From assembly GCF_932294415.1 (NCBI RefSeq), contig NC_065541.1, positions 55,220,290-55,284,289 on the forward strand: a stretch of 64,000 nt of DNA. Direction: 5' to 3'. Made by a program: the position numbers and the translations under genes. Under the pieces are notes generated by a model. It had not been told where the DNA came from. It did no database searches and saw only the letters and a list, made by a program, of their open reading frames with translations. Positions 6,046-54,852 of this stretch are shown one piece after another. Position 1 is the stretch's first letter. The number at the start of each line of letters is the position of its first letter. Origin of the DNA: Quercus robur. Lineage: Eukaryota > Streptophyta > Magnoliopsida > Fagales > Fagaceae.

Positions 6046-7418
6046 TCATATTATATATAATAAAAGTTGGGCTTAGACGTCGTGGTTACGCCATGTGGTT
6101 TCACCAAATTGCAAAAATTTTAATAAATTTTTAGATTTTAAGAATAGATATATACATATTTTTTGGATAAATATGACAAATCAAGTAATGAAAGAAAATA
6201 GTATTTGATTTACAACTATAACAGTTGTATCTATCTAAAACGTTATCAACAAACCCTAAAATCGATAGAATAAAATTACTTAAGGATAGAATTTAAATTA
6301 AAAAAAAAAAGGAGATTCTTTCATCTTGATGCTTTTTTGGTGGTTCTAAGCTTTGCCCATTTCGGAAGAATCACAACACAATCACATGGCATCATCCATG
6401 GGGCTGGATTCTATATCTGAAGCATTTCATCGAGAAGGCCAAACTTGGTAAGCACTTAATATTTTAATCCATTCCATCCCATATTTTCTATTTTGGTTTT
6501 CACTTTTCAGTTAGTATAATCAATCCCCTTTTCCTACGTTTCTTTAAAAAAGGTAAAAATATAAATAAAAAAAATAAAAAAAAAATAAAAAAGAAAGATA
6601 GAACATGCATTTTTTTTCCTACATTTTTTTTTTTTTTTTGGGTGGATAAATTTGCATCTTATATCATCTTTTTCCTAATAATAAAGTAAAAAAAAAAAAA
6701 AAAAGTATTTGAGTTTCACTAAACTATTTCTTTTTGTTCATATCATCTTCTTCACAACTTAAAATTCTCACTATATATACACAGTTTTTTGGTGTTTCAT
6801 TATTTGAGTTTCACTACATACTTTACAATTATTTGTTATATTCTTCATTTCTCCTCTTTGCCCTACCTACAACCTTGCAGGTAATTTTTTTTTTCTTTCA
6901 TCAAATTAAATAGATTTTGTGTATTTGTTGCCTTTTATTATATATAATATGATTTTTATCAATAAGTTTTAAAAATAGGCTGAAATTTTATATTTGATCA
7001 CAACTTTTAGTGTTTTTTTTAGAAGTCAATATGCAAGCAATATATTTGTATTTTTTAATTTCTTATTACTTGATCATTTGTTGTTGACATCAATATTTTA
7101 TAATAGATTTAATTTGTTATGGCTTTTGTTTGGTGCTGTGTTCCATGTAATCTATATTCTTTAATTAAAAGCAAAATTTTCTATCATACATGAAATTGGA
7201 TACGAGAGAATACATTCGTGCAAATTTCTATGTAAGTATATCTTTACTTAACTCCTTTTTATTTATTTTTATTTTTATTTTTTTTAAGTTCAAAAATCTG
7301 GATATTTTTTCATTAATGAATTGAGGTTTTGGCTTAATTTTGTTTTCATCCGTTTCAATTATTGAATTCATTATTTTTTCATGTGTAATATTGATATATG
7401 TGTTTTTTTTTTTTATGA

Positions 7419-7481
<63 letters not shown>

Positions 7482-7861
7482 TCTTAAAGGCTAAAACACA
7501 ATACAATTAACATTACTTTAAGTTAGGGTGTTATATTTATTTATTAGTAAGTTAGAATGTTAAATTAAGTTAGAGTATTATATTTTTATTTATTATTAAT
7601 TTAGAATGTTACATATAGATACATATTCTGGCTTAGGGTTAATATAACTTATAATCATTTGAATAAAATTAACACTAAAACAAATTATTTAAATATCAAA
7701 ATAAGAAATAAAAATTAAATTTCTTTTAAGTGTACAAGTACAATTTATTTTTTAATCTTAAATTTTGAATTAATTCTTTTTTCATTTTATTTGTTTTTAA
7801 ATTTAATTATATTATCAAAATATTTTTTATTAAGCCGTGCATCGCACGGGCATAATACTAG
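6046..7861 (+). mobile_element. Non-autonomous Helitron, 1.8 kb
   Basis: The 5' end reads A|TCATATTATATATAATAAAA, with TC at 6046-6047. The 3' end has a perfect six-base-pair hairpin, CCGTGC-atc-GCACGG (about 7835-7849), followed about ten bases later by the terminal CTAG (7858-7861) and then a host T. Insertion between A and T, a 5' TC, a subterminal hairpin and a 3' CTRR end are the diagnostic Helitron features; no target duplication is expected. No Rep/helicase coding sequence is present, so it must have moved in trans. A (TA)n microsatellite sits inside. The 5' TC could alternatively be 6041-6042, because the sequence there is itself repeated. Confidence 0.83.
7427..7473. repeat. (TA)n microsatellite
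   Basis: About 20 uninterrupted TA units, running into TGTGTGTG at the right edge, inside the Helitron. Confidence 0.95.
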
Positions 7862-8704
7862 TATATATATATATTGTTAACATCAAGTTCTAATCCCCAT
7901 TTATCCAAAAAAAAAACGTTTTTAAAAGATAAAAACATTCGAAAATAAATAGAGCACCAAAAATAGACAAAACAATGCTATTGGCTAGCATTCTTTTGTT
8001 TTTCCTTGTTTGAATTCTCAACCACGTTTCTTGAGAATTTACGATAATACGATTGACTTGCATAATCTCAAATTTAATCTTGAAAATCGTTGTATTCTCA
8101 CTTTTTTTTTAATCACTTGCCTCCATTTTTCAAGCCACTGTAGTCTGTAGACCCTTTCTTTTGTTTCAAGTAATATATGTTGAACATATCATTCTCTTGG
8201 ATTTTTTTTGCAAAATAACATTATTTTGCTAACAATTTTGTTGGTTAGCTACGTTTCCAAACTATCTAAGAAACTAACATTTCGAGTCTCTCATACTCAA
8301 GTTCATTGTAGCAACTCAACTCTTTAAGACTCGAGTTCTCTAAAGAATGAAGCAACCCAGAAAAGCAACAAAAACAAAAACAATGATGCAATAAACCTAG
8401 AGAAGCAACAACGAAGCAACCTCCACGGTTTGAACTGAACCCAAGTGGCGAAGGCTCCAGGTGGCGATGGTGAAGACTCCAAGTGAGGGAAATCGGCTCG
8501 AACTAAACTTCCATTCCCTCTGCTCTCTAAACTTCCATGGCTGAGCCTTCTTGGCTCTTCCTCCGACCATCATCACCACCATAAGTGGTGATCCAATCTC
8601 AAGCTCATCTCTTTGAACCTAAACCAAAACCCTCTTCTCTCAAGCCAACTCTCTCGATCTAATGACAAACCCTAGCCACTACCATCATAAGGATGCAAAG
8701 ATGA

Positions 8705-8780: not shown

Positions 8781-8908
8781 CTAGATTTGCAGTAACTCGA
8801 GCCTTTGGGTTTGGGTATTTTTTTTTTTTAATCTTTGATTTGGGTCTTAAGAAAGAAAAAAGAAGGAAGAAAAGGTACTTAGTACAAAAACTGGAACTCG
8901 AGTCTCTA

Positions 8909-10523
8909 GGCTCTGTTTGGGAATTCATAAGGGAATGGAATGAAATGATCATAAGGGAATGGAAATGAATGGAATGGAATGAAATGTATTTAAGTAAGGG
9001 AAAAGAATTTAATAGAATGAAATTAAGTAACCTTGATTAGATGTTTTAAAATAAATGAATAAAAATTAATGAAATATAAGTAATCTTATTTGGGAGTAAC
9101 ATGGAGAGAATGAAATGAAATCATTTTATAACAATATTATTGTTAGACCCCTATTTTAAAATAAATAGTTGAATATATAGGGGCATTTTGGAAGTTTTAG
9201 TAAAAAAATCATTAAATCTAATTTCATTCCCTCCCATTCCTCTCAATTTTGGGGGGAATGAAAATTTAAGATTTTAAGGGAATAGAGAGGAATGAGTGTT
9301 CTCTCCTACCCATTTCATTCCCTTCCACTTAAACTCCCAAACAAGGGAATGATCTTTCCATTCCCTCTATTAAAACTCCCAAATAAGGGAATGAAAGAAT
9401 ATTCTAAAATGATTTTTTTCATTCATTTTCATTTCATTCCATTCTTTCCTCCCAAACGAGGCCTAAGGGAATGAAATGGAATGTACTTAAGTAAGAGAAA
9501 GGAGTGAAAAAGAATGGAATGGAGTTAAGTAACTTTAATTAGATGTTTTAAAATAAAGGAATAGAAAGGAATGACAATAATGGAATGTAAATAATCTTAT
9601 TTGAGAGCAATATGGAGGGAATGGAATAGAATCATTTTATAACAATATTACTATTAGACATTTATTTTAAAATAAAGAGTTAAATATACAAGGGCATTTT
9701 GGGAGTTTTGGTAAATAAATATTAAATCTAATTCCATTCCCTTCCATTTCTCCCAATTTGGAGGGGAATGAAAATTTGAGGTTTGGGAGGAGAGAATAGA
9801 ATGAAATGGAAATGAATGAAAAGAATCATTTTAGATTATTCTTTCATTCCTTTGTTTGAGAGTTTTAATGGAGGGAATGGAAAGTTCATTCTCTTGTCTA
9901 GGAGTTTAAGTGGAAGAGAATGGAATGATTAGGAGGGAATACTCATTCCTCTCTATTCTCTTAAAACCTCAAATTTTCATTCCCTCAAAATTTGGAGGAA
10001 TGAGAGAGAATAGAATTAGATTTAATGATTTTTTTACTAAAACTTCCAAAATACCCCTATATATTCAATTCTTTATTTTAAAATAAGAGGTCTAATAGTA
10101 ATATTGTCATAAAATAATTTCATTTCATTTCATTTCTTCCATGTTGCTCCCAAATAAGATTACTTACATTCCATTCATTTTCATTACTTTTCATTCCTTT
10201 ATTTTAAAACATTCAATTAAGGTTACTTAATTCCATTCCATTCATTTCCCTTACTTAAATACATTTCATTCCATTCCCTTATAATTATTCTATTCTATTC
10301 CATTCCATTCCCTTATGAACTCCCAAACGGAGCCTAAGGGAATAGAGAGGAATGGGTATTCTCTCCTACCCATTTCATTTCCTCCCACTTAAACTCCCAA
10401 ATAAGGGAATGAGTTTTCCATTCTTTCCATTAAAACTCTCAAACAAGAAAAGGAAAGAATATTCTAAATTGATTCTTTTCATTCCTTTTCATTCCATTCC
10501 GTTTCCTCCTCCTAAACGAAGCC
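8909..10523. mobile_element. Cluster of three nested Tourist-like (PIF/Harbinger-type) MITEs
   Basis: Copy M1 (8909-9463) begins GGCTCTGTTTGGGAA and ends CCCAAACGAGGCC, the inverted GGC-TGTTTGGG terminus typical of Tourist-like MITEs. Its body is rich in 'ggaatgg/ccattcc'. A second forward copy, M2, is split (9464 to about 9780 and about 10334-10523, ending CTAAACGAAGCC). It is interrupted by M3 in opposite orientation (about 9781-10333, from GGTTTGGGAGG to CCCAAACGGAGCC). M1 and M2 share the internal order ttaagggaatagagaggaatg, then ctcctacccatttcatt. TA-containing flanks (cta/taa) hint at a degenerate three-base target duplication; I could not establish it firmly. Confidence 0.75.
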
Positions 10524-10587
10524 TAAAACTTGAGTTCCACGTGGATTTTAATTCACCTCAGTCCTGCCAACACATGGAACTCGAGTC

Positions 10588-12188
10588 TGTTAGGAATATG
10601 AAATAATTGTTTTAATATTTTAGTCAGGTAGTTAGCTAATTGGTTAAGATTAGGATTAAGATGAGTTAGTTAGGATTTGAGTACATGTAGCTCATTTAAC
10701 ACATGGCTTAATACATAGAATACATGTTGAATTAATTAGCCAATTATTTGAGCTATGTGGACTAATGACATTAGAGCTAGTATTCTATAAGTATATGATT
10801 GTAATTCAACATTAGAGATCAATGGAAGAATAAACCAATTTCTTAGTGCATTAGTGCATCTCTCTCTCTTAATCTCTTTCTTTCTCCATGGAGGGTGACT
10901 ACCTCGAATTAAGTCAATTTCCCTACAATTCCCTACAATTCCCCTATAATTCCCATCAATCCCCATTAGAAACCACCGGGTTCTTAACAATTGGTATCAG
11001 AGCTGTCGATTTTGATACATACGAATGTGATCGAAGAGAACTTTGGAAAGAATTACAGCAAATTAAATGGTGAACAAAGTTTAAGAGGATGTCAAGACTT
11101 TGTATGAATCTCACAATGTCGTTGTAGAGAAGGTCAAGGTCTAAAAAGTTTATGAAAGAAGAGCTTTCAAAATTGCAAGAGGATCTTGAGAATATGACGG
11201 AAGAGGAGTTACAATCTCTTGATTCAATGGAACTCAAAGAACAAATTAAGTTCCAAGAATCTATTGTTGTTGTTGTAAGTTGGGACGTTGATTTTTGTGT
11301 CAAAGTGGATGATGATATCCATGTACACGTTGCCCTTGAAGTTCAGTCCAAAGAACCAACGAAGAAGGTGATGATGATCTTCCCAGAACCAATTCTTGAT
11401 GCACCAATGGAGGCTTTTATTCAAGAGTCAATGATTCAAGAATTGGCAATCCAAGTGTTGGTGATCTAAGAATCTAAGATGCAGGCGCCAACAATTTTAA
11501 TGGTTCTAGAATCAAATGAGGTCTTGAGGTTACAAGAACATTCTAAGGTTCAAAGAACCAATGAGACCTTGAAAATTAAAGAACCATTGAAGGCTCAAGA
11601 ATTCAAGCAAAGTTTGAAGATCTACAAAGAAGAAACCTTCATGTGCATAGGACCGCTTGTCAGAGAGAAATGCATGAATATGGTGATCAAAATATCACTA
11701 ATGTATTGGTCCATTGGAAGATCTCCTTTAATGAAGGTGTCATTTCACAACAACATCTTTGTGGGCAAGGTGCTTTCAAGGAGAGGGAAATGTTAGGAAT
11801 ATGAAATAATTGTTGTAATCCCTTTAGTTAGGTAGTTAGCTAGTTGGTTGAGATTGAGATTAGGATGAGTTAGTTAAGATTTGAGCACATGTAGCTCATT
11901 TAACACATGGCTTAATTCATAAAACACGTTTTGAATTAATTAGCCAATTATCCTGAGCCATGTGGGCCAATGACATTAGAGCTAGTCTCCTGTAAATACA
12001 TACATGATTGTAATTCAACATTAGAGATCAATGGAAGAATAAACCAATTTCTTAATGCATTAGTGCATCTCTCTCTCTTAATCTCTTTCTTTCTCTATGA
12101 AGGGTAATTATTTCGAATTAAGTCAATTTCCTTACAATTTCCTTATAATTCCCATCAATCCCCATTAGGAACCACCGGGTTCTTAACA
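10588..12188 (+). mobile_element. Short non-autonomous LTR retrotransposon, complete, with target duplication
   Basis: The 5' LTR (10588-10989) and 3' LTR (11791-12188) both start TGTTAGGAATATGAAATAAT and end CACCGGGTTCTTAACA. A primer-binding site TGGTATCAGAGC (10992-11003), complementary to the initiator tRNA-Met 3' end, follows the 5' LTR. A purine tract (aaggagagggaaa) precedes the 3' LTR. The five-base target duplication GAGTC flanks it (10583-10587 and 12189-12193). The 800-bp interior has two short frames (11152-11469, 11479-11796) with no recognisable gag, protease, RT or integrase, so it is a LARD/TRIM-like element needing help in trans. The LTRs differ at roughly one base in ten over their first 100 bases, so the insertion is not recent. 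It is nested in the Mutator-like element. Confidence 0.93.
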
Positions 12189-30249: not shown

Positions 30250-32897
30250 TGTCGCTGCAGCAGATTTGGATTAAAAAAAAAAAAACACGCAGATTCAAAG
30301 AATGGAATCCCAAATACAGAGAGAGAGAGAGCTGTGCGCGTGTTTGCTAAACGAGAAAAGTTTGTTATATTTGCGTGGGAACGTGTAATTTGGAACGTGA
30401 AGGTCGTTAACGTTTCAGGGACAAGCAAAGATGCCTCCAAATTTTTTTATTTATACATCTCCATACGGCGTCGTTTTAACACTTTAGGGTGTGTTTTATG
30501 ACGAATATGCCCTCCAGAAGTTCTACGTTGATAACATTTTTACAACAAATCATAAGTGGTTAATTGGTTGTTATTGGTTATAATTTGAATCTACCACTGA
30601 AATTATTTTTCTACCTTATCAATAACAACCTGTCACATAAAATTTGTTGTGAAAATATTGTAGATATAATATTTCTCATATGCCCTCTCACCCTTAATAA
30701 CCGTCTATGGACTCTTAACAAAGATGGTAAGAACCTAGCCTCATGCATGTGCCACTTACAATACATGATGCTTGAAAGGGTTTTTGAAATTTTTCGATAG
30801 TAGGATAAGTGGATAACTATGGATCAAAGATAAAATATAGGCTATAAATAGTTAGTTTTGTCGAATATTGAATGTTCAAATTTAGTTAGATAATAACTAT
30901 AAAATGTTCAAATTTGACTCAAGCTTAAACAAAGCCTAAAATATACGTTTGAGCTTTTTAGGTAATCCAAACGCTTGAGTTTGGCTTGGTTTGACTAAAT
31001 TCATTAGTCAAGTTTAGTTTGAGCTCAATATCAAGTTTTTAAGCTTGAAATCCAAAACAAGTACATTAATAAGCTCATATTAAGCATATTATGAACTCAT
31101 TTGGTTAAGATGTGTGGTTTCAATGCTCAATTAATTAAAAAAATTAGTAAGATATGCATTTATTTTTCAATCTCATATTAGGCATATACCAACCTAAACT
31201 CAGCTTATTTTTTATCAAGCCCTAATGTTTTAGGGGCCTGTTCATGAACAATTATTTTATTCTATTTTTTTGCTTGAACTTGGCTTGTTTATTAAATAAG
31301 TTTGAAATTAAGGCTCAAGTTTGGCTCATTTATAAACAAACAAACATGAATATGTTTTTCATCAAGTCAAACTCAAACATGTTTATGAATAGCTTAGTTC
31401 ATTTATTGCCCTATTAAAACATGTGATATGTAGTTAGATATAATTAAAAAAGTTTTGTTTTGTTTTTTTTCAATTTAACTATTTTCTCTTGTCTCTCATT
31501 TTATTCTAATTTGCTTAGAACCATTTGCAATAATATTTTTTAGTTCTCCATTTTTATTTTTAGAAAAATATATTTAAATTAAAGTGTGGTCCAAAACTCC
31601 ATGTAATCGAGGGTTGAATTTGGACTTACCAATTGACATGAGAAGGTTTCAAGTTTTAATTGTGATAACCTCGATTGATATCCCTAGACTTCTCTTTTTT
31701 TTTTTTTCCTTGTTACGCTTTGTTATTCATATGGAGTAAAGAATAATCCTAATTTCTAAATCAAACTTGATTACAAGAGGATTAACATGGTTTTCACAGG
31801 ATGAGGTACCGGTAGAAGTTAACCTGCAAGATTAGGTAGGAGACAGGGGTGATCTGAGATTTTGACACTCATGATTGGTTGAAATTCTAGCCAAGTGCAC
31901 GAGATCAATTGACAAATTCATCTCATGTCAGAATCTTGAATAGATCTAATTTAAAATGAGCGTAAAATAACAGGAATCATTGTTTGGTAACATGTATGGC
32001 TTGCATGAACATTTCAAGAGGCAGTGTTTTTTCTCCCCTTATTAAAACTCTAAATCAATCCAGATCAATCAATTGTTGTAGCCCTAGTATAGAGTGAGGT
32101 CCCTCAAAGAGCGCCCTTGACCAGATCATAAATAAGTTGTCACGAAATACAGGGCGATTGTTAATATTATTATCTAAGCTTTTATGGCTGCATTGGCTTC
32201 TTCAAGATGTATGAGTTTTCTTGTCTTCTGCCACTTTATTTACTAGAATAATTGGAGTAAAATACACATCGTACACAATGACGTCTTTCATGAATAAACC
32301 AAATATATTGAGATTAACTGTCCCTTTGATTGTCACAAATTTTTTTTTATAGTACTTGTTACCAAAAAAAGAACCATTTTCAAAGTACCTTGCAAATTAC
32401 AACTCGATCCATTCCCTCTTATGATAATGCCAACATCTTTGCCAAATCTTATCACTAGGTCGGTTCTATGATCTTGTATTGAAATTTAAGTTGGCAACTT
32501 GTGACCTATCTTGAGTTGAGAGAGGTTGTTAGATTACATTAGACTATAGCCATATTGGTTCATTGTCCTTTTCTAGCTTGTACAACCCTCACTTATATAT
32601 ATTGCACTAGTAAAATATCTCTAAATAGGACTTCCTTATGAAGTTTAACATGAAATTGAATAATACTATAATTATCCTTTCAAAAGTTAACCAAAAACCA
32701 TAAAATCCAGCTTGACAACTTCATTTTTGATTATTAAAAAAAAATTAAAAAAAAAAAAAAAACCCTCCCCGAAGCAAATCTAGCATATATGAGCTTAGCT
32801 TTGCTGATCCATATTCCATAACAGCACAGATTCGATAATCTCACATTTGATAATGTCATGAGCCACACCTTCTACGTCATCAATCTAAATTTATACA
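30250..32897. other. Intergenic region upstream of the SEC1-type gene
   Basis: The SEC1 5' leader (minus strand) carries an A13/T13 tract at about 30273-30286 and a GAGAGAGA run near 30321-30330. About 30510-30690 resembles 61550-61720 (tacaacaaat or acaataaatt, then tgttattggttataatttga, then caacctgtcac), so it is a dispersed MITE-like repeat. 30840-31440 is AT-rich with repeated 'gttcaaatttgactcaagct' type sequence. From about 32815 the DNA resembles the sequence downstream of the second reductase gene (44279 on). No gene seen. Confidence 0.5.
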
Positions 32898-32997
32898 TCT
32901 ATATATATATATATATATATATATCTAAAAGCTAAAATATAGTATTTATTGTTATTACGCTCTTATTAAGTTACATTAATAATTACATCATCACCAC

Positions 32998-33157
32998 AGC
33001 GCACCCTTGGTACAATGGTTACTCCACAAATACAAATGCTTGTGGGGTATTGGGGGTAAGGGTCAGGATTCAAGTTTTCAAGAGAGAGTTTCACATACAT
33101 ATATACTTAGATTAGGTTAGAATAGAAATTTTATCTTGTATAAAAAAAAAAAAAAAA
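32998..33157 (+). mobile_element. tRNA-derived SINE with target duplication
   Basis: Starts agcgcacccttggtacaatg (A-box-like 'tggtacaatggt'), has a B-box-like 'gggtcaggattcaag', and ends ttatcttgtataaaaaa in an A tract. Flanks are aattacatcatcaccac (32981-32997) and aattacgtcatccaccc (33158-33174), a target duplication of about 17 bases with three mismatches or shifts. It is nested in the Helitron. Confidence 0.8.
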
Positions 33158-33748
33158 AATTACGTCATCCACCCATTTTCAACATTGTTTCTCCTATTTT
33201 AACTATTTTTTTCTTATTAATTTTCCAATTTATTGTTATACTTTCTCTAACTTCTCCTCCCTCTTTTTACATTTTCATCTCCCCACTACTATCTACCTTA
33301 ATATCACTTTTCATTTATCCATTTATCTTCCTTTATTTTTGGCTTTTCTTATTCTTCTCTTCTTACTATCAATTTACAATTCTCTTTCCCATTCTATATA
33401 TAGTTTTCCTACAAACAAAAGGTTATTTCTCTCTCTCAAGTTTTTTCTCATTTTTTGTGGATTTTATTTTTCTTGCATCTCTACTTTAGGTTGATGAATT
33501 TTTGTATTATTTGCAACTCTACTACTTGATTTGATGTGATTAAGTTTTATGTTTTTAAGTTTTTATCTTTTTTTTTTATTCTTTTTTATTTCATAGATGT
33601 TATCATCATATTGTATCATAAAGATAGTATATAAAAATATAATGTTATTTTATTACATAACATGACTTGGATAATTTGGTATTTATTACTATATATTTTA
33701 TTTTTACTTTTTTTCTTCTCATATTATTTTCTATAAATTTCTTATTAT

Positions 33749-33751
<3 letters not shown>

Positions 33752-33799
<48 letters not shown>
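33752..33799. repeat. (CT)n microsatellite
   Basis: About 24 TC units in the Helitron interior, in a pyrimidine-rich strand asymmetry that spans about 33180-33800. Confidence 0.95.
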
Positions 33800-33803
<4 letters not shown>

Positions 33804-34014
33804 AATTCTTCATTGCAACTCTACTTTATATTGATGAATCATTGTGATTTTTAAAATTATATTTTGGGTTCATACATTTGGCATTATATTTTTTAGTTCC
33901 TCATTACAAGAAGTCTCTTTCTCTCTACAATAAAATTTTGAGAATAAATTATACATATTTAGAATAAGTTTGATATGGGTTTTGATTGTCATAATAATTT
34001 ATTTTAAAAGAATG

Positions 34015-34799
34015 TGTGGGAGGTTTGAGGACAGCACCAGTACTAGGCCATAATCGAGGAGTGCATAGGCCCATTATGGGGTATCCAAGGACGGTGCCCC
34101 TATTGGGCCACGACCGAGGAGTGTATGGGCCCAACAGGTAGATGGAAAATGCTGGGAGAAAGGAATCAAACAAGGACCTCTCACAACCCCAGGAAGGAGA
34201 GAGGAATGCTACCACTGCTAAGAGGTTCGGATTGAGGCAAGTTGCCTTGGCAAGGGACAGAGAAAAAGGGACAGGATGCATGATGAAGAAACCACCGCCC
34301 ATCACCTTTGCATTAAATACACTGCACCAATTAGGACAATTGCATTTATGAAGTGACGCCTGAATAGTGCTCGAATAACCTGTAGCACACCTTGCATTTC
34401 CTTCAAAGAAGGGATGAGACAAGCATCTAGGGTAAATTTGCCACCTTACAACTAGAGGGTCAGGATCAAGTGCAAACGACTATAAAATGAGGGGAGAACC
34501 CCATTAAGAAGGGGACACAAAGAATTAGGGAGAAAATTACTTAAACACATGTTGTTGTAAGTTGTGTAACACCTTCCTCAGTCAACCAAGGGAACATTAA
34601 TACAAGACTTTAATTTTTCCCACTCAAATCCTTTTTGCTTTCTATCTGATTCATGTTTCCCAGTGTTAGACCATAAGACAAGGAATCCACGTGTTGGTCT
34701 GCTTTTCCCATCTTTAAATAAATTGATTGTAGTGGGCTCACATCCAAAGCCCAACTCCTAGCCTTTGGGCCCTTGGGTGCTACCTTTATGCCCCACATA
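34015..34799 (+). mobile_element. Probable solo LTR, 785 bp, nested in the Helitron
   Basis: Begins TGTGGGAGGTTTGAGGACAG and ends near ATGCCCCACATA, so the ends are inverted (TGTGGG/CCCACA). GAATG occurs on both sides (34010-34014 and 34800-34804). A TATA-like 'ctataaaatga' at about 34479 sits where an LTR promoter would be. With the GAATG duplication the element ends in TA rather than CA, so the right end is not canonical, and a slightly different boundary is possible. No internal region or second LTR was found. Confidence 0.62.
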
Positions 34800-35194
34800 G
34801 AATGAATAAGTTGAATAATTTATTTTAAAAAAATGACACACACACACACACACACACACATATTTATTTATTTATTTTGCTTAAATATATAATCAACCCT
34901 ATGCAATTCATTTAAAAGTAATGTCATTATAACAAATGAATAATTGCTCTAAAGGTTACATTTGCATATTTATAGTCTTTATGTTTAGAAAGACTTTAAT
35001 TTAAATTTACCGAATTGGACTGAAATGCTATGTTAATGTGATATAGTAAAATGGCAACAATACTAAATGCTATACTTAAAGATTTTAGATATTACGAGTT
35101 TAAAATTTATATATTTTTTAATAAATTTGGATATAGAATAGATGCTTTCAACCCAAACATGTTTTTTCCTATTATATATATAAGTGCACAAAAT

Positions 35195-35870
35195 AGATTG
35201 AAGTGGATCAAAATGAAAGTGGTCCAAATGGACCGAATTGGACCAAATACAACAAAGTGGACTGAATGGACAAAATAGGACTGAATAGGAACAATGTGGA
35301 CTGAATAGAAACAAAGTGGACTGAATAAGAACCAATGGACAGATAGGACCAAAGTGGACAGAATGGACCTATCAGGACCAAATTGGACTGAATAGGACTA
35401 AAGTGGACTGAATATAACCCGTGTAGTCTGAATAAAACCGAAGTGGACTAAATGAACCAAATAGAACCAATGTGGACCGAATAGAACTAAAGTGGATAAA
35501 ATGGACTGATTAGGACTAAATTGAACAGAATGGCCCAAATAGAACTAAAGTGGACCAAAGTGGATAGCTTGTACCGAATAGGACCAAATATAACCAAAGT
35601 GGACAAGATGAATGGAATAGGACCAAAATGGACCGAATATGACCAAAGTGGACATAATGGACCGAATAGGACTAATGTGAACCGAATAGAACCGAAGTGG
35701 ACTAGTAGACCGAATAGAGCCAATGTGAACCGAAGTGGACTAAATAAGACCGAATGTCCTGAATAGAACTCTAGTGGACAGAATGGACTAAATAGGACCG
35801 AATAGAACCAAGTTATATCGAAGAGGACATAATGGACCGAATAGAACCAATGTGGACTGAATCAGACTTT
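35195..35870. repeat. Degenerate minisatellite of GGACCGAATAGAACCAAAGT-type units
   Basis: About 680 bp of alternating 'gtggact-gaat' and 'aggacc-aaa' blocks of 11-12 bases (higher-order period about 35 bases), very poor in T on the plus strand. A smaller outlier patch with the same motifs lies at about 36070-36180. Both are inside the Helitron. Short frames here encode only periodic peptide and are not genes. Confidence 0.9.
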
Positions 35871-36428
35871 TGAATATTTATCATTTTTATTGCATTTTCA
35901 GGGATTATATTTCTAATTTCTAATATTTATTTTCTTTGAATTTTTTAACTTAAAATTAAAGAAGTTAGCCCAAATATAATAAATCATACTTTTCAACCCA
36001 AAAATTAAGGAAAAAAAAAGATTTTTTGAGTTGAAATTGAAAAGACAACCTACAAAAAGAATCAACTTATGGTCCAATTAGTCTAAAATGGACTTAAGGG
36101 GACTGAAATTGATTGGATGGACCGAAGTAGACCTAATTGGACCAAATGGGATTGAAGTAGACCTAATTGGACCACATAGAAACAATTTAATTTTAGGGAG
36201 AACAAATTATCTTTAACAAATTTTAGAAAAAGAATTATACATTATATAACGATACAAATTATTATTTATTCTCATACATCGCGCGGTTCTGCGACTAGTA
36301 GCAATAAAAGATGAAACTAGCAACTGTTATACAAATTGCAAAAGAACTTATACATTAGACAACAGAGTGAGAATAAATCAATGCCAGACTACCGCACGCC
36401 TTACCCATAATTTTCATTGAGCATTGAA

Positions 36429-38933
36429 CTAGAGAAACCCCTTTTCTTTGCAGCATTGAATGGCTCCATCAAACATTTCATTGAGCCCATACTTGTACTT
36501 GAAGCCGGCATCTAAGAGCTTCTTTGATGAGAGACCCGCTACTCTATAACCTTTAATTTCCTTCAAGTAACTGCAAAAAGGTGAAAAGAGAAAACATTTT
36601 CTTCATAACTTTGTAATAAAAGGAAGAGAAGATTTAATATTTTAGTTTCTAAACGATCATGGAGAAGAAAAGTTGAACTTACTCTAGTGTTGGTATTTGA
36701 AATTCTGGGTATCTTTCAGTAAGAAATTCAGACATCCTTTGGAGTGTTATGGCCACTGAGGAACAAATGTACCTTCCTTTCACAGTTGGGCATTCAAGGA
36801 GAAAAATATTTGCTCTTGCCAGGTCATCTACGTGGACCATAGAAGTATTCAATAGATGACTGTATTGATCCTTGTCACCTACAAATGATATACGAGTTAA
36901 AAGCAATTTCCTTCCAGGAAAATATTGGAAAAAAAAAAAAAAAAAACCTTGATGTATAAATAAAGGATTTCTTGTTTACATTTTCATATGACAAGCTAGT
37001 GACACCTTCAAATTGACACCAAATCCTTTTTTATTGCAATCACATAATGTACAAACGAGAGCAGAGAAAATTTTGTAATAATTAAGGATTGCAAAAGAGA
37101 TTGTTCAGAAAATTAGAAATATCTATATGAAAAAAAAAAAAAAATTGGTCAAGTACCTTCAAGGCTTCAACATAATTGAATTGGTTCGTTTTTAACACTT
37201 ATCTTTATGCTACCTCTCTTTTTTCTTCTTTCCTAGGCCTCTCATTGATTCTCACAATGCATTAGACCATGCAATAAATTATTCTCTCACTTTTCACCAA
37301 AACTAGTCTCTAAGCCATATGAAAATTTGACAAAATTAGTTAGAATGTATTTAGAGAAAGTCAACCAAGATTTATTCAGTGTTTGGTTGCTTCATTCAAA
37401 AAGGCAAAGTTTTATTAATTTGAACTAACATAGTTTAGCATTAATTATTTACTTGTAACTTTAAAAACCAATTGAATGTAACAGATAAATGTTTTTTTCT
37501 TTTTTTCTTTTGAAGGAGATAATTGATATCATTGAATACAGTTCACATAAAACGCAACTCTATGCAATATAATGTTTTGGTTAAGACATATGAGAGACAA
37601 TACATACCCAAGACCATAGACAATATTGTTCGAACTGAGCCAGGAAACTTGGGACAAATGAAGGGTCCAACAACAAAGGGAGGAATTATGGTTACCACAT
37701 CCAATCCATGTTTTTCTCCAAATTCAAGAACTGTCCTTTCGGTCAATGTCTTGGAAATCATGTAAGAACCTCCAAAGTTCTTTAGGGATTTAATTAGATC
37801 TACATCAGACCAAAAGCTCTCATCCATTTCATCTTCATCCTTGCCATTAAACAGAACTGCTGATGCACTAGAAGTGTACACAACTCGCTTCACAGTCTTG
37901 GAATTCAGGCACGCCTTCAAGATACCTAGTGCTCCATCGATTGTTCTTTTGGTTACTATTTCTTCAGGTTCTTTGTCTTCAAAATCAACAGGAGTGGCAA
38001 CATGAAATACACCTACACATCCTTCAATGGGTGCATTGAAACTCTCTGGATCGCTGAGATCTGCATTGAAGATTTGGAGTTTCTCTGATGCTCCTGGTAG
38101 ACTTGTAAGGAAGCTAATGTCTTTCTTATTCTCTGGTCAAAGTGGTCATGTACGTGAAATTCTATCAATTCTCTTTTGTTACACTATGTATAAAAAAATA
38201 TAATTAACTGAGTTGATGTACTTAAGGACTAATTTATCATTTAAACATAATATAAACATAAAACTGGACCCAAAGAGGCATATAAGCGAATCTGGGCCAT
38301 CCAGCATTTTTATCTGTGATAGAAAAACAGTACTTTATAATTCCTACACAGCCATCAAAGAGGCATATAGTTTATTTAGTAATAAATAGATTTTTTAATA
38401 AGTTTGCGATCTGTATCCAATGAATTCCACTTTATTCCAATTTTAGGTGCTTGTGTGTGTGTGGTTTTATTTATTTATATAATTTTAAATTGAATCTAAT
38501 AACTAATAGGAGTAACTAGAACAAAGGAATTAATTCTTGCTATATTCAGCAAGTTATGAGAAAAAATAAAGATGAAATTTGACATATATGTGGCTGAAAA
38601 TAAATATTATTCTCATGAATCTTCTGAAGAGATGTGGACAAGCTTCGAAAGGGAAAAAAAAAATATTAACAAAATTACGGAACTGAGGCAAGATATATAT
38701 AATATAAAGATACCCTCAAGCTCATTTTGCTCTTATATATGAATACTCCTTGATAATCAGGACTGGCATATTTGAGTTTTATATATATAGCCTTGGCAGA
38801 GATGTGGCTTACCTGGGTCAGACCGAATGGTGGTTCTAACATGGTAACCTTGATCAAGGAGCCTCATGATCATCCATGATCCTATATACCCTGTACCACC
38901 TGTAACACATACTGTACCCTTATCTCCTTCCAT
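36429..38933 (-). CDS. NADPH-dependent SDR reductase, vestitone-reductase/DFR-like, copy 1, complete
   Basis: Exons 38933-38813, 38132-37608, 36878-36683 and 36570-36429 are GT-AG with phases 1, 1, 2. The total of 984 nt gives 327 residues plus TAG. The family (extended SDR; DFR, vestitone, anthocyanidin and cinnamoyl-CoA reductases) reduces carbonyls with NADPH in the cytosol. Visible: Rossmann motif [11 protein letters not shown] (Gly12, Gly15, Gly18), Arg36-Ser-Asp-Pro after beta-2, the catalytic Ser in YTSSASAV (about 127-129), and the active-site Y164-M-I-S-K168. The CCR signature (NWYCYGK type) is absent, which argues against a true cinnamoyl-CoA reductase. The whole-length pattern ([45 protein letters not shown] at the end) is closest to vestitone-reductase-like proteins. 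Substrate unknown. The start is the only ATG ahead of the Rossmann strand, preceded by a GA-rich leader. Confidence 0.95.
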
Positions 38934-39609: not shown

Positions 39610-39942
39610 TTAGGCGTGAACTTTATTGCCTGTTTCCTTTAATTTTTTTTTTTTTTTTTTTTGGTTGCCTGCCACGGTATCCGGGGCTTCGCCCCGACTA
39701 ATCCGTTGGTCGACCCGGGTCGCACACCTGGCTGTGGTGGGTGAGTCTCCCAACAGGGCATTCTGCATACACAAGGTCTCGAACCCGAGACCTTGCTTAA
39801 GCGACACAAGCTGCTTACCACTTGAGCCAACCCATGTTGGTTGTTTCCTTTAATTGTAGTATAGAATATGTACCCTTTTTTTTTTTTTTTAGGCGTGAAC
39901 TTTATTGCCTGTTTCCTTTAATTGTAGTATAGAATATGTACC
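39610..39942. repeat. Tandem duplication with the SINE in one copy
   Basis: The block 'taggcgtgaactttattgcc' then 'tgtttcctttaatt' then 'gtagtatagaatatgtacc' occurs twice: 39610-39874, split by the SINE, and about 39890-39942, uninterrupted. The second block is therefore an intact copy of the SINE target. Confidence 0.9.
39645..39842 (-). mobile_element. tRNA-derived SINE, full length, with 13-bp target duplication
   Basis: On the minus strand it starts CCAACATGGGTTGGCTCAAG, with an A box TGGCTCAAGTGG (39829-39818) and a B box GGTTCGAGACC (39785-39775), and ends in GGCAACC plus an A tract (T17 on the plus strand). The perfect 13-base repeat GTTTCCTTTAATT flanks it (39632-39644 and 39843-39855). 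It is much more GC-rich than its surroundings. Confidence 0.93.
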
Positions 39943-43867: not shown

Positions 43868-44275
43868 TCACAGCAAAATTCTCAAAAAATATAGCTTTTA
43901 ACAACTCAAAAACCTACTTCATTTATTTTAACAACTCACTTTATAATATACCCAATATCAAATATTTTATTTTAATAAACAACACATTAAAATAATATAA
44001 ATAAACAAATAAAATAAATATAAAAAACACTACACATGGATAGACTTGAGAGAGAGAGAGAGAGAGACTAATTTAATAATAAGAGAAGAAAAAGAAAATA
44101 ATTTAATATTTGTAGCAACTTGCTACAGTGAGCTGCTACTACTAATAGCTCACTATAGCAAGTTGGTAAAATATTTTAAATTTAACAACATTGCTATTGG
44201 GTGTTTTTGTGTGTTTAGAGCTCTAAAATAACTAAAAACTATTTTAAAAGCATTAAAGTGAATGCTATCCAATAC
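43868..44275. mobile_element. MITE, same family as part of the hAT-like element at 14.9 kb
   Basis: Left end agcattcacagcaaaattct and right end gcattaaagtgaatgctatcc are inverted. The segment 'aacaactcaaaaacctactt' then 'cccaatatcaaatattttat' is shared with 14945-15045. A short (GA)n run is at 44048-44067. Confidence 0.65.
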
Positions 44276-44629
44276 AGCACGGATTCGAGAATCTCACATT
44301 TGATAAGCATTTGATAAGGTCATGAGTCATGAGCCATCTTCCACGCCACCAATCTGTATAGCCACTTAATGAAGCTAGCAATGGTTATGCAAAATACTAC
44401 TTATGCATGACAGAAAGAGAGAGACAAAATAAATCAATGCCGTAGTAAGGCACACCTTACATATTTTTCACTTAGTCACTTATTCATTTTACTATAAAAA
44501 GTTTCTTAAAATAATTTATCAACATAATCCTTTAATCCTTTTATAAATACTGAAAATAGTAAAATACAGTACTTCTTCTTCTAGGCACATACATTTGGCA
44601 GAATCCAAAATTCATTGAGCATTCATGAA

Positions 44630-51665: not shown

Positions 51666-51993
51666 ATAGTTCCAGACTTCCATGTCACAGAAAACATTAT
51701 TCCACAACTTGTTTTTGGCTGATGGTAAAATACTCTCCAATCACAAAATGTGCTATCTTTTCTTAGCAGTGTTCTCTCACTTTTGTAAGCTCCACCAATG
51801 ACGATCATTTATAGACACCTTATTTTGCAAATATTCTCTTTCTTTTGAGCAAATTGGTCTCAAGAGGCCAAATGACCATTCCACATGTTTAACAAATTCT
51901 GTAAGTGATCCGAAGCTAAAATCCACAATACACTAGAAACGTGATGCCATAGTGGTATTATATAAATTAAAATCAAGGTTTAGACCAACATGA

Positions 51994-53007
51994 TGTTGGG
52001 TGCACTGCACCATGGGTCCAGCCCACATGCTTTTTCAAGAGCTCATTTAATGAGCATGTCATTCCATGACTTGTGAGAAGTCTGCTTCTCTTAATGAGTT
52101 ATGAGAAGTGAGCCAAAGTGTGTTGGACACGCTGAAGACAAAAGAAAAGAAACAAGCAAGGCCATTCGGCCAGTGAGAGCTGAAGAAAGAGATTTTGGTT
52201 GAAGCAAAGTTGGAGTAAGTGGCTTCCATTTCTTGTGATTTGATGTAAAGAGTACTGTGGAAGGAAGAAAAGAAAGAAAACGTGAAAGAAATAAAAGGGA
52301 AAGGCCATTCGGCCATTTGAAGATGTAGAAAAAAGAGGAGTCCCAGCAAGTGAGACTGAGGGCTAATTGCAGTTTGGCAGAACTGCGTCAGTGAGTGAGC
52401 AAGTAAAAAGAAAGAAAAGGTGAAATAAATAAAAGGGAAAGGCCATTCGGCCATTTGAAGACGTAGAAAAAAGAGGAGTCCCAGCAAGTGAGACTGAGGG
52501 CTAATTGCAGTTTGGCAGAACTGCGTCAGTGAGTGAGCAAGTAAAAAGAAAGAAAAGGTGAAAGAAATAAAAGGGAAAGACCATTCGGCCATTTGAAGAT
52601 GTAGAAAAAAGAGGAGTCCCAGCAAGTGAGACTGAGGGCTAATTGCAGTTTGGCAGAACTGCGTCAGTGAGTGAGCAATCAGTGAGTGAGCAAGTAAAAA
52701 GAGCAATCAGTGAGTCAGCAAGTAAAAGAGAAGAGAAAAATAGAGAGAGTAAGAGAAAATTGTAAGAGATATATATAGTGAGAAAGAGAATAGTGAGTGA
52801 AAAAAAAAAGAGAGTATTTTTTTGCTCAAGTTGTATTTTTAAGTGTTGTAATCTCTATTTAATATAGAGAAATTATTCAGAGTTTGTCCCGTGATTTTTT
52901 CCTTCAAGGAGAAAGGATTTCCACGTAAATATTTGTGTTCTTATGTGGTTGTGCTTCCGTTGTGCTTGCTAAAATTTATTCACGGTAATAGAGAATTTTT
53001 CCTAACA
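51994..53007 (+). mobile_element. Solo LTR, 1014 bp, with CATGA target duplication
   Basis: Begins TGTTGGGTGCACTGCACC and ends GAGAATTTTTCCTAACA, with TG...CA and inverted TGTT/AACA ends. CATGA flanks it on both sides (51989-51993 and 53008-53012). A TATA-like 'gagatatatatagtgag' near 52765 precedes a T-rich stretch and 'ttgtaatctctatttaata', which resembles an LTR promoter and poly-A region. It contains three 138-bp tandem units. No internal retrotransposon sequence or second LTR remains. It ends about 300 bases beyond the stop codon of reductase copy 3 and points toward it. Confidence 0.92.
52270..52690. repeat. 138-bp tandem repeat, three copies, inside the solo LTR
   Basis: Units are marked by 'ccattcggccatttgaagat' at about 52305, 52443 and 52581 and by 'cagtttggcagaactgcgtc'. 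The spacing is 138 bases both times. A diverged fourth 'ggccattcggcc' occurs at about 52159. Because 138 is divisible by three, the minus strand stays open across the array as 46-residue repeats; I regard that frame as accidental. Confidence 0.92.
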
Positions 53008-53303
53008 CATGATACAAAAATATATATATGATTTTTTTTTTTTTTTTGAAGATTATATGATTTCCATTAGACAAAGAATGGTCTTACAATAGTCATACAT
53101 GATACATGCATGGAATTAAATTTAATTAATTTTGATTGATCCTAAAAATTTTTTTTATTAAAAGTCAACTAAAAGCTTAATTTACATTGGATTAAATGGC
53201 AAGCAATTGTGAACATGCAATCATTGGATAGTCCTGTTAACATTTGTCCTTTCACTGTAATTATGATGGTTTTCTCGAGAACTTTTTGCCAAAGATGTAT
53301 GGA

Positions 53304-54852
53304 TTAAAGAAAACCCTTTTCTTTGCAGCACCGGATAGCTCCATCAAACATTTCTTGGACGCCATACTTAAACCTGAACCCAGTACTTAAGAGCTTCATC
53401 GACGAGAGACTTGAATGTCCATAACTTGTAGACTTTTTAAAGTGACTGTCAAGAGAGAGAGAGAGAAGGAAAAGAAGCTAAAAAGAGTTCTCTCATATGG
53501 AAATTGTGTTTTGAGTCAATGTGGAAACTGAAATTATGAAGAAAATAAATAAGAGAAACACTCACTCTTCCATATTTGGTAATTGAAATTCCGGGTATCT
53601 TGCCAAAAGAAATTCATACATCTGATGCATTGTCATTTCGGCCGAGGAACAAATATATCTCCCTTGTGCATTAGGATATTCAAGAAGGAAGATCTGTGCA
53701 CTAGCCACATCATCTATGTGCACCATATATGAGTGCATAAGATATTCATAATGGTCCTCTTCACCTGCATTCAAATGCTCTTTAATTAGTTACCGATCTC
53801 CTCGTGAAATAGTCTGGCCAAAAAATGGGGAAAAAAATGTTAATCTCCTAAGGCTCTAACAACTCAAAGAACTAAGGTGAAATTGAAGAATGTATAACAT
53901 GAGAAATGAAACAAACCCAAGATCATTGCAAGTGCCAAAGACACCGAGGAGGGAGTAGTAGGACATATGAAGGATCCAACAACTAGGGGAAGAACCAATG
54001 TTATAAGATCCAATCCATTTTTTGCCGCAAACTCTAGCGCTGCCCTCTCGGTTATGGTCTTGGAAAGCAGGTAAGAAGGATTTACAAGCTTGCTACTTCT
54101 ACAAATATCAAGGTCACTCCATGTACTTTCATCTGTCACACTTAGACCTTTGTTGTTGTACAATATTGTGGCTGCACTGGAGATGTATATCACTCTTTTC
54201 ACTGATCTCTTCGAATTCAGGCATGCCCTCAAGATTCCTAGAGTTCCTTCCACAGCCCGTTTGGTCACAGCTTCCTCCGGCTCTTTGCCATCAACATCCA
54301 TGGGATGGGCAAGATGAAAGACTCCAATGCATCCTCCGATGGCTGTGTTGAAACTGTCTGGTTTGTTGAGATCAGCATGGAAAAATTGGAGCTTTTTTGA
54401 GGCTTCTGGTAAATTTGTGAGGTAGCTGATGTCTTTCTTGCAATCTGATCATAGTTTTAAAAGTCATCACCAAGTGCTAGATAACATATTTACGTGGTCA
54501 AAATTTTGCTTACAGAAATAGTTTCTTGTCCACATGAAGTAAACATCATGACTAAAACTTTCTAACCATGCACAAATTTAATTTAATAATTAATAACTAA
54601 TTTACAATTGAAATTATATTATTAGAGTTAACAAGATATAATCATTTTCATTTATTAACTTATAAAAGTTAAATTCACAAACCTTGTTTGGTAAGAAATC
54701 ATACATAATCTTTTCTAAGAAATAGAACATTTATATTAATTAGTGAATTATAAATTAATAAGTTGACATCTTATGAACTTGTCTTAAAATTTTGATGATT
54801 CAATCTCACATCTATGTAAGAATTTATATGTTACACATTTAAACTTATAAAG

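Follow-up and report, generated by a model that had tools for sequence, protein, structure and literature searches.

Two neighbouring reductase genes in the 64,000-nucleotide stretch of Quercus robur DNA analysed here (the window; A+T-rich, with 32% G+C, and plant-like in its genes and repeats) differ in the sequence behind them. Beside reductase copy 1 lies an insert of ~3.4 kb, at about 32898-36298, that copy 2 lacks, and this raises the question of what the insert is and whether it arrived before or after the genes were duplicated. We consider it very likely to be a non-autonomous plant Helitron that inserted at an AT dinucleotide after the copy 1/copy 2 duplication.

The reductase neighbourhood

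Copies 1 and 2 are minus-strand tandem paralogues that share 86% identity over 37517-38180 and 78% over 36413-37052 (self-BLAST of the window). All three reductase ORFs tested matched NAD-dependent epimerase/reductase families, the best matches of the copy 3 ORF being vestitone reductase and dihydroflavonol 4-reductase chains, and copies 1 and 2 are classed as a tandem pair of vestitone/dihydroflavonol-reductase-like genes. The insert ends ~130 nt downstream of the copy 1 stop codon, while the corresponding empty site lies ~270 nt downstream of the copy 2 stop codon. Self-BLAST of the window also returned a cluster of direct and inverted repeats at 8907-12188 (80-88% identity) and a ~138-nt tandem repeat at 52268-52678, with copies 98% identical.

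Table 1 Coordinates of the insert, its contents, its flanks and the paralogous empty site (positions within the window; slashes within sequences mark a junction).
Feature	Position	Strand	Description
Probable non-autonomous Helitron	32898..36298	+	5' TC to 3' CTAG, between A and T; based on the empty-site alignment, with no target duplication above chance, no TIR and no Pfam match
Left flank	32815..32897	.	Homologous to DNA downstream of copy 2, starting at 44268
Nested tRNA-type SINE	32982..33169	+	Body 32993-33158, poly-A tail
Probable nested solo LTR	34015..34797	+	TGTGGG...CCCACA, 0.78 kb; class judged by eye
Degenerate minisatellite	35216..35862	+	GGAC-type units, with periods such as 20, 29, 39 and 49
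3' terminal motif	36277..36299	+	CATCGCGCGG-N7-ACTAGT (the final T belongs to the flank); CTAG is preceded at 0-1 nt by a weak hairpin of 4 bp
Right flank	36299..36416	.	Homologous to DNA downstream of copy 2, ending at 44470
Reductase copy 1 stop codon	36429..36431	-	Last exon read as ...CCKEKGFL-stop
Paralogous empty site	44268..44470	.	Break near 44354-44370; for the TC...CTAG pair at 44358/44359, CTGTA/TAGCC
Reductase copy 2 stop codon	44630..44632	-	

An empty site beside reductase copy 2

The original prediction held that the two flanks of the insert align collinearly with a single uninterrupted segment behind copy 2, and this was borne out by self-BLAST of the window and by shuffling. 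Identity was 89.7% for the left flank (32815-32853 versus 44268-44306; E = 3e-7) and 71.8% for the right (36311-36416 versus 44369-44470; E = 1e-6), and the joined flanks gave a local alignment score of 97 against 44268-44470. When the copy-2 stretch was subjected to dinucleotide shuffling, the observed score was matched by 0 of 1000 shuffles for each of four queries (left, right, longer right and joined flank), with a largest shuffle score of 32. Homology to the copy-2 side was also looked for to the left of 32815, and none was found there. Between the homologous flank and the stop-codon homology, copy 2 has ~140 nt (44471-44610) that copy 1 lacks. Downstream of reductase copy 3 (51800-53400) a third empty site was not found, the best local scores being 24 and 24, as judged against the copy-2 shuffle maxima of 29-32 and not against shuffles of their own.

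How precisely the break can be placed is a separate matter. Split alignment reached its optimum of 114 at four left/right pairs (32887/36294, 32888/36295, 32890/36298 and 32891/36299), and single ends within 10 points of this optimum, with the other end left free, spanned 32884-32909 on the left and 36287-36312 on the right. Homology confines each end to a range of some 25 bases without by itself singling out A/TC...CTAG/T, so that choice draws on the known termini of Helitrons. No combination of TC and CTRR ends fell within 14 points of the optimum. Among the 12 such pairs scored, the best were 32898/36298 and 32884/36298, which tied at 97; the pair 32898/36298 is thus 17 below the optimum, and by eye it requires the copy-1 flank to carry ~8 additional bases (AAATTTAT). 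On the 3' side, one of the top-scoring right ends is the CTAG at 36295-36298. On the 5' side, the junction is a (TA)n run in which the alignment is ambiguous, and the TC at 32898 and that at 32884 agree with the empty site to the same degree. We tentatively prefer the TC at 32898, since TCTATATATA resembles a usual plant Helitron start. The flank alignment proposed earlier therefore confirmed the homology to copy 2 but not the exact break point, and two accompanying claims, that the break falls exactly at A/TC...CTAG/T and that the empty site is unusually direct proof of both ends, were too strong: near-optimal breaks extend over both ranges given above, the alignment leaves both ends without base-level precision, two TC starts score alike and the hairpin at the 3' end (see below) is not significant.

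The termini are compatible with those of a Helitron. Both A/TC and CTAG/T lie within the breakpoint tolerance, as they did in 1.0% of 20,000 random placements and, with the site itself left out, in 0.8% of 19,953; when the ending was widened to CTRR/T, a compatible pair was present in 3.9% of the 19,953 placements. The assigned ends are flanked by A and T, having been assigned with the help of the motif because alignment alone is inexact.

The 3' end and a second Helitron-like end

The insert's 3' end reads CATCGCGCGGTTCTGCGACTAG/T, and the CGCGCGG that precedes its CTAG/T is the sole occurrence of this sequence on either strand of the window. The hairpin at this end is weak: folded at three lengths it gave -3.2, -3.2 and -3.4 kcal/mol (z from -0.73 to -0.44), no better than shuffles. 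In place of the canonical hairpin 10-15 nt before the 3' end there is a 4-bp stem 0-1 nt before CTAG, and the insert's end ranks 11th among the 16 sites listed in a scan of both strands of the window for hairpins followed by CTRRT. By eye, the differences between the hairpin's lost 5' arm and the expected pairing arm are all transitions, a pattern that CpG decay would give. In the available text of a survey of maize Helitrons, a canonical GC-rich hairpin of 16-20 nt located 10-15 nt before the 3' end is not required of every element, and 16 of 35 Helitrons are without an obviously strong one (PMC2575219), so the weak hairpin is not taken to exclude a Helitron. It is rather doubtful that the insert belongs to an uncatalogued family of plant Helitrons in which a degenerate hairpin abutting CTAG functions as the 3' end, replacing the spaced one. 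Scanning 32000-37500 against Rfam with a limit of E = 1 gave a single match, of 17.9 bits against a gathering score of 60 bits, which is taken as chance. The top site in the hairpin-CTRRT scan was at 39668-39703 (+), where a perfect CGGGGC-TTC-GCCCCG stands one base before the CTAAT at 39698.

Another 3' end in the window bears on the reading of this one. At 7835-7861, a perfect 6-bp hairpin (CCGTGC-ATC-GCACGG) is followed by 8 nt and then by CTAG/T (CTAG at 7858-7861), and this sequence has the appearance of a textbook Helitron-like 3' end. The pattern CATCGCRCGG-N7-ACTAGT is common to both ends, on the same strand and with the same spacing (second copy at 7840-7862); two or more matches to it arose in 1 of 100 shuffles, a post hoc count, since the pattern was composed after viewing both ends. 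In unguided scans of the window with 30-mers and 24-mers, each end's partner was the other end, as the best match in two of four scans and tied-best in two of four (18/30 and 16/24, with one direction tied with an unrelated site). As a signal of kinship this pairing is suggestive, not strong, and the shared 3' motif lends moderate support to a Helitron reading of the insert. At an E of 1e-5, self-BLAST found neither a match between the interiors of the two Helitron-like elements nor a second copy of the insert within the window. A plausible TC start near 6046, picked by eye, would delimit the second Helitron-like element at 6046-7861 (+); with the first 31 bases from 6047 as the query, the 5' end at 32898 was absent among the best six sites shown. 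When the N7 3' motif was searched for elsewhere, it was present in 1 viral stretch and 20 prokaryote stretches, which are taken as chance matches in collections that large.

Contents of the insert

The insert is a composite that contains a SINE, a probable solo LTR and a minisatellite. The SINE, in which we recognise by eye what are presumably an A-box and a B-box, is flanked by an 11-bp target duplication (ATTACATCATC and ATTACGTCATC, 10/11 identical) that lies wholly inside the insert. The probable solo LTR has GAATG on either side (34010-34014 and 34800-34804), the right-hand one preceded by two additional bases (TA), and a 22-nt near-copy (33993-34014 and 34814-34835) flanks it as well. 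A shorter minisatellite stretch is found at 36086-36196. The stop-to-stop ORFs that overlap the element reach at most 176 aa, and none of the 14 with at least 60 aa matched a Rep/helicase or any other Pfam domain at E 0.01; we therefore regard the element as non-autonomous.

Its composite nature would also be expected if the insert had been built up stepwise, a TA-rich spot behind copy 1 having collected the SINE, LTR element and minisatellite with no Helitron around them, and the CTAG and GC-rich end being coincidental or belonging to a fragment. The position of the left junction in a (TA)n run, where the alignment is ambiguous, agrees with such a history. However, over 1 kb of the insert lies outside the SINE, solo LTR and minisatellite and is left unexplained by them, and a best-scoring right boundary coincides with CTAG/T directly after the window's only CGCGCGG. 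The SINE's target duplication, being inside the insert, also indicates that the SINE entered DNA that was already there, and on these grounds stepwise build-up appears unlikely. The best reading of the insert is a Helitron without recognised coding capacity. The earlier identification as a Helitron thus stands as the best reading, given the empty site, the lack of a target duplication or TIR (see below), the compatible ends and the second 3' end, but it is not proven to the base.

Timing and mode of insertion

The absence of the insert from copy 2 fits an insertion after the duplication, and it is likely, assuming no loss from copy 2, that the insertion postdates it. If instead the insert predated the duplication, copy 2 would have lost it by deletion. 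The DNA downstream of copies 1 and 2 does differ by several other indels, and in maize a putative somatic Helitron excision is described as having left a vacant site, with contamination a possible explanation (PMC2267711, as far as the available text goes). However, on both sides copy-2 sequence remains alignable up to some 10-25 nt from the junction, self-BLAST gave no match of the element interior to the surroundings of 44358, and a deletion that matched the element's ends so closely is less likely than an insertion; we regard this alternative as highly improbable.

Target duplications and terminal inverted repeats were looked for within the breakpoint tolerance. The longest exact repeat was 4 bp (equalled or bettered in 284 of 300 random placements; random mean 4.9), the longest repeat with one mismatch was 6 bp (185 of 200; random mean 7.3) and the best inverted match was 8/15 (298 of 300; random mean 9.5). 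Because these repeats and inverted matches are no better than those of random placements, a TSD-forming or TIR element was rejected. That a cut-and-paste or LTR-type element with a target duplication made the insert is extremely unlikely: no support for it was found beyond the fact that a duplication of 2-4 bp would be indistinguishable from chance in the repeat test, while the exact, one-mismatch and TIR values are all below their random means.

For a Helitron, the Rep/helicase of an autonomous element nicks the TC end and peels off or circularises one strand up to CTAG, and that strand inserts between A and T, leaving no target duplication. We infer that the insert arose by this rolling-circle mechanism: after the reductase gene was duplicated, with the Rep/helicase of an autonomous element acting in trans, a Helitron would have landed at an AT dinucleotide ~130 nt downstream of the copy 1 stop codon. 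A SINE would later have inserted into the Helitron, as probably did an LTR element since reduced to a solo LTR. The insert is most likely a new but ordinary Helitron, apparently non-coding, downstream of one member of the duplicated reductase pair.

Comparison with known Helitrons

Empty sites are a usual means of validating Helitron insertions, and it is convenient to have one so close by, within a single window; paralogous or vacant sites have already been documented for Helitrons (PMC6544945; in maize, PMC2267711; both as excerpted). For the reductase duplication the Helitron could provide a relative time marker, and an influence on the 3' region of reductase copy 1 is conceivable.

Plant Helitrons, as characterised in the available portions of three sources, run from TC to CTRR at an A/T target, with a strong 3' palindrome that is frequent but not universal (PMC2575219, PMC6591975, PMC13286980). 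The insert resembles non-autonomous members of this group in its compatible TC and CTAG ends flanked by A and T, its GC-rich 3' end and its lack of a target duplication above chance, a TIR or a recognised protein domain. Unlike typical plant Helitrons, its 3' hairpin is weak and lies 0-1 nt from CTAG, and its 5' end is not unique. Within the window it is most readily set beside the 7835-7861 end, with which it shares the 3' motif described above, whereas the hairpin of that end is perfect and the interiors gave no match to each other in the self-BLAST at E 1e-5. The Xuan/Feng Helitrons of wheat offer a further comparison, by description and as far as the excerpted account extends (PMC13286980). 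They differ from the insert in that de novo insertions have been observed and the hairpin is located 11 nt upstream of the end, but the eccDNA-producing element is likewise without transposase coding capability, and these Helitrons share with the insert a TC start, a CTAG end and an AT target.
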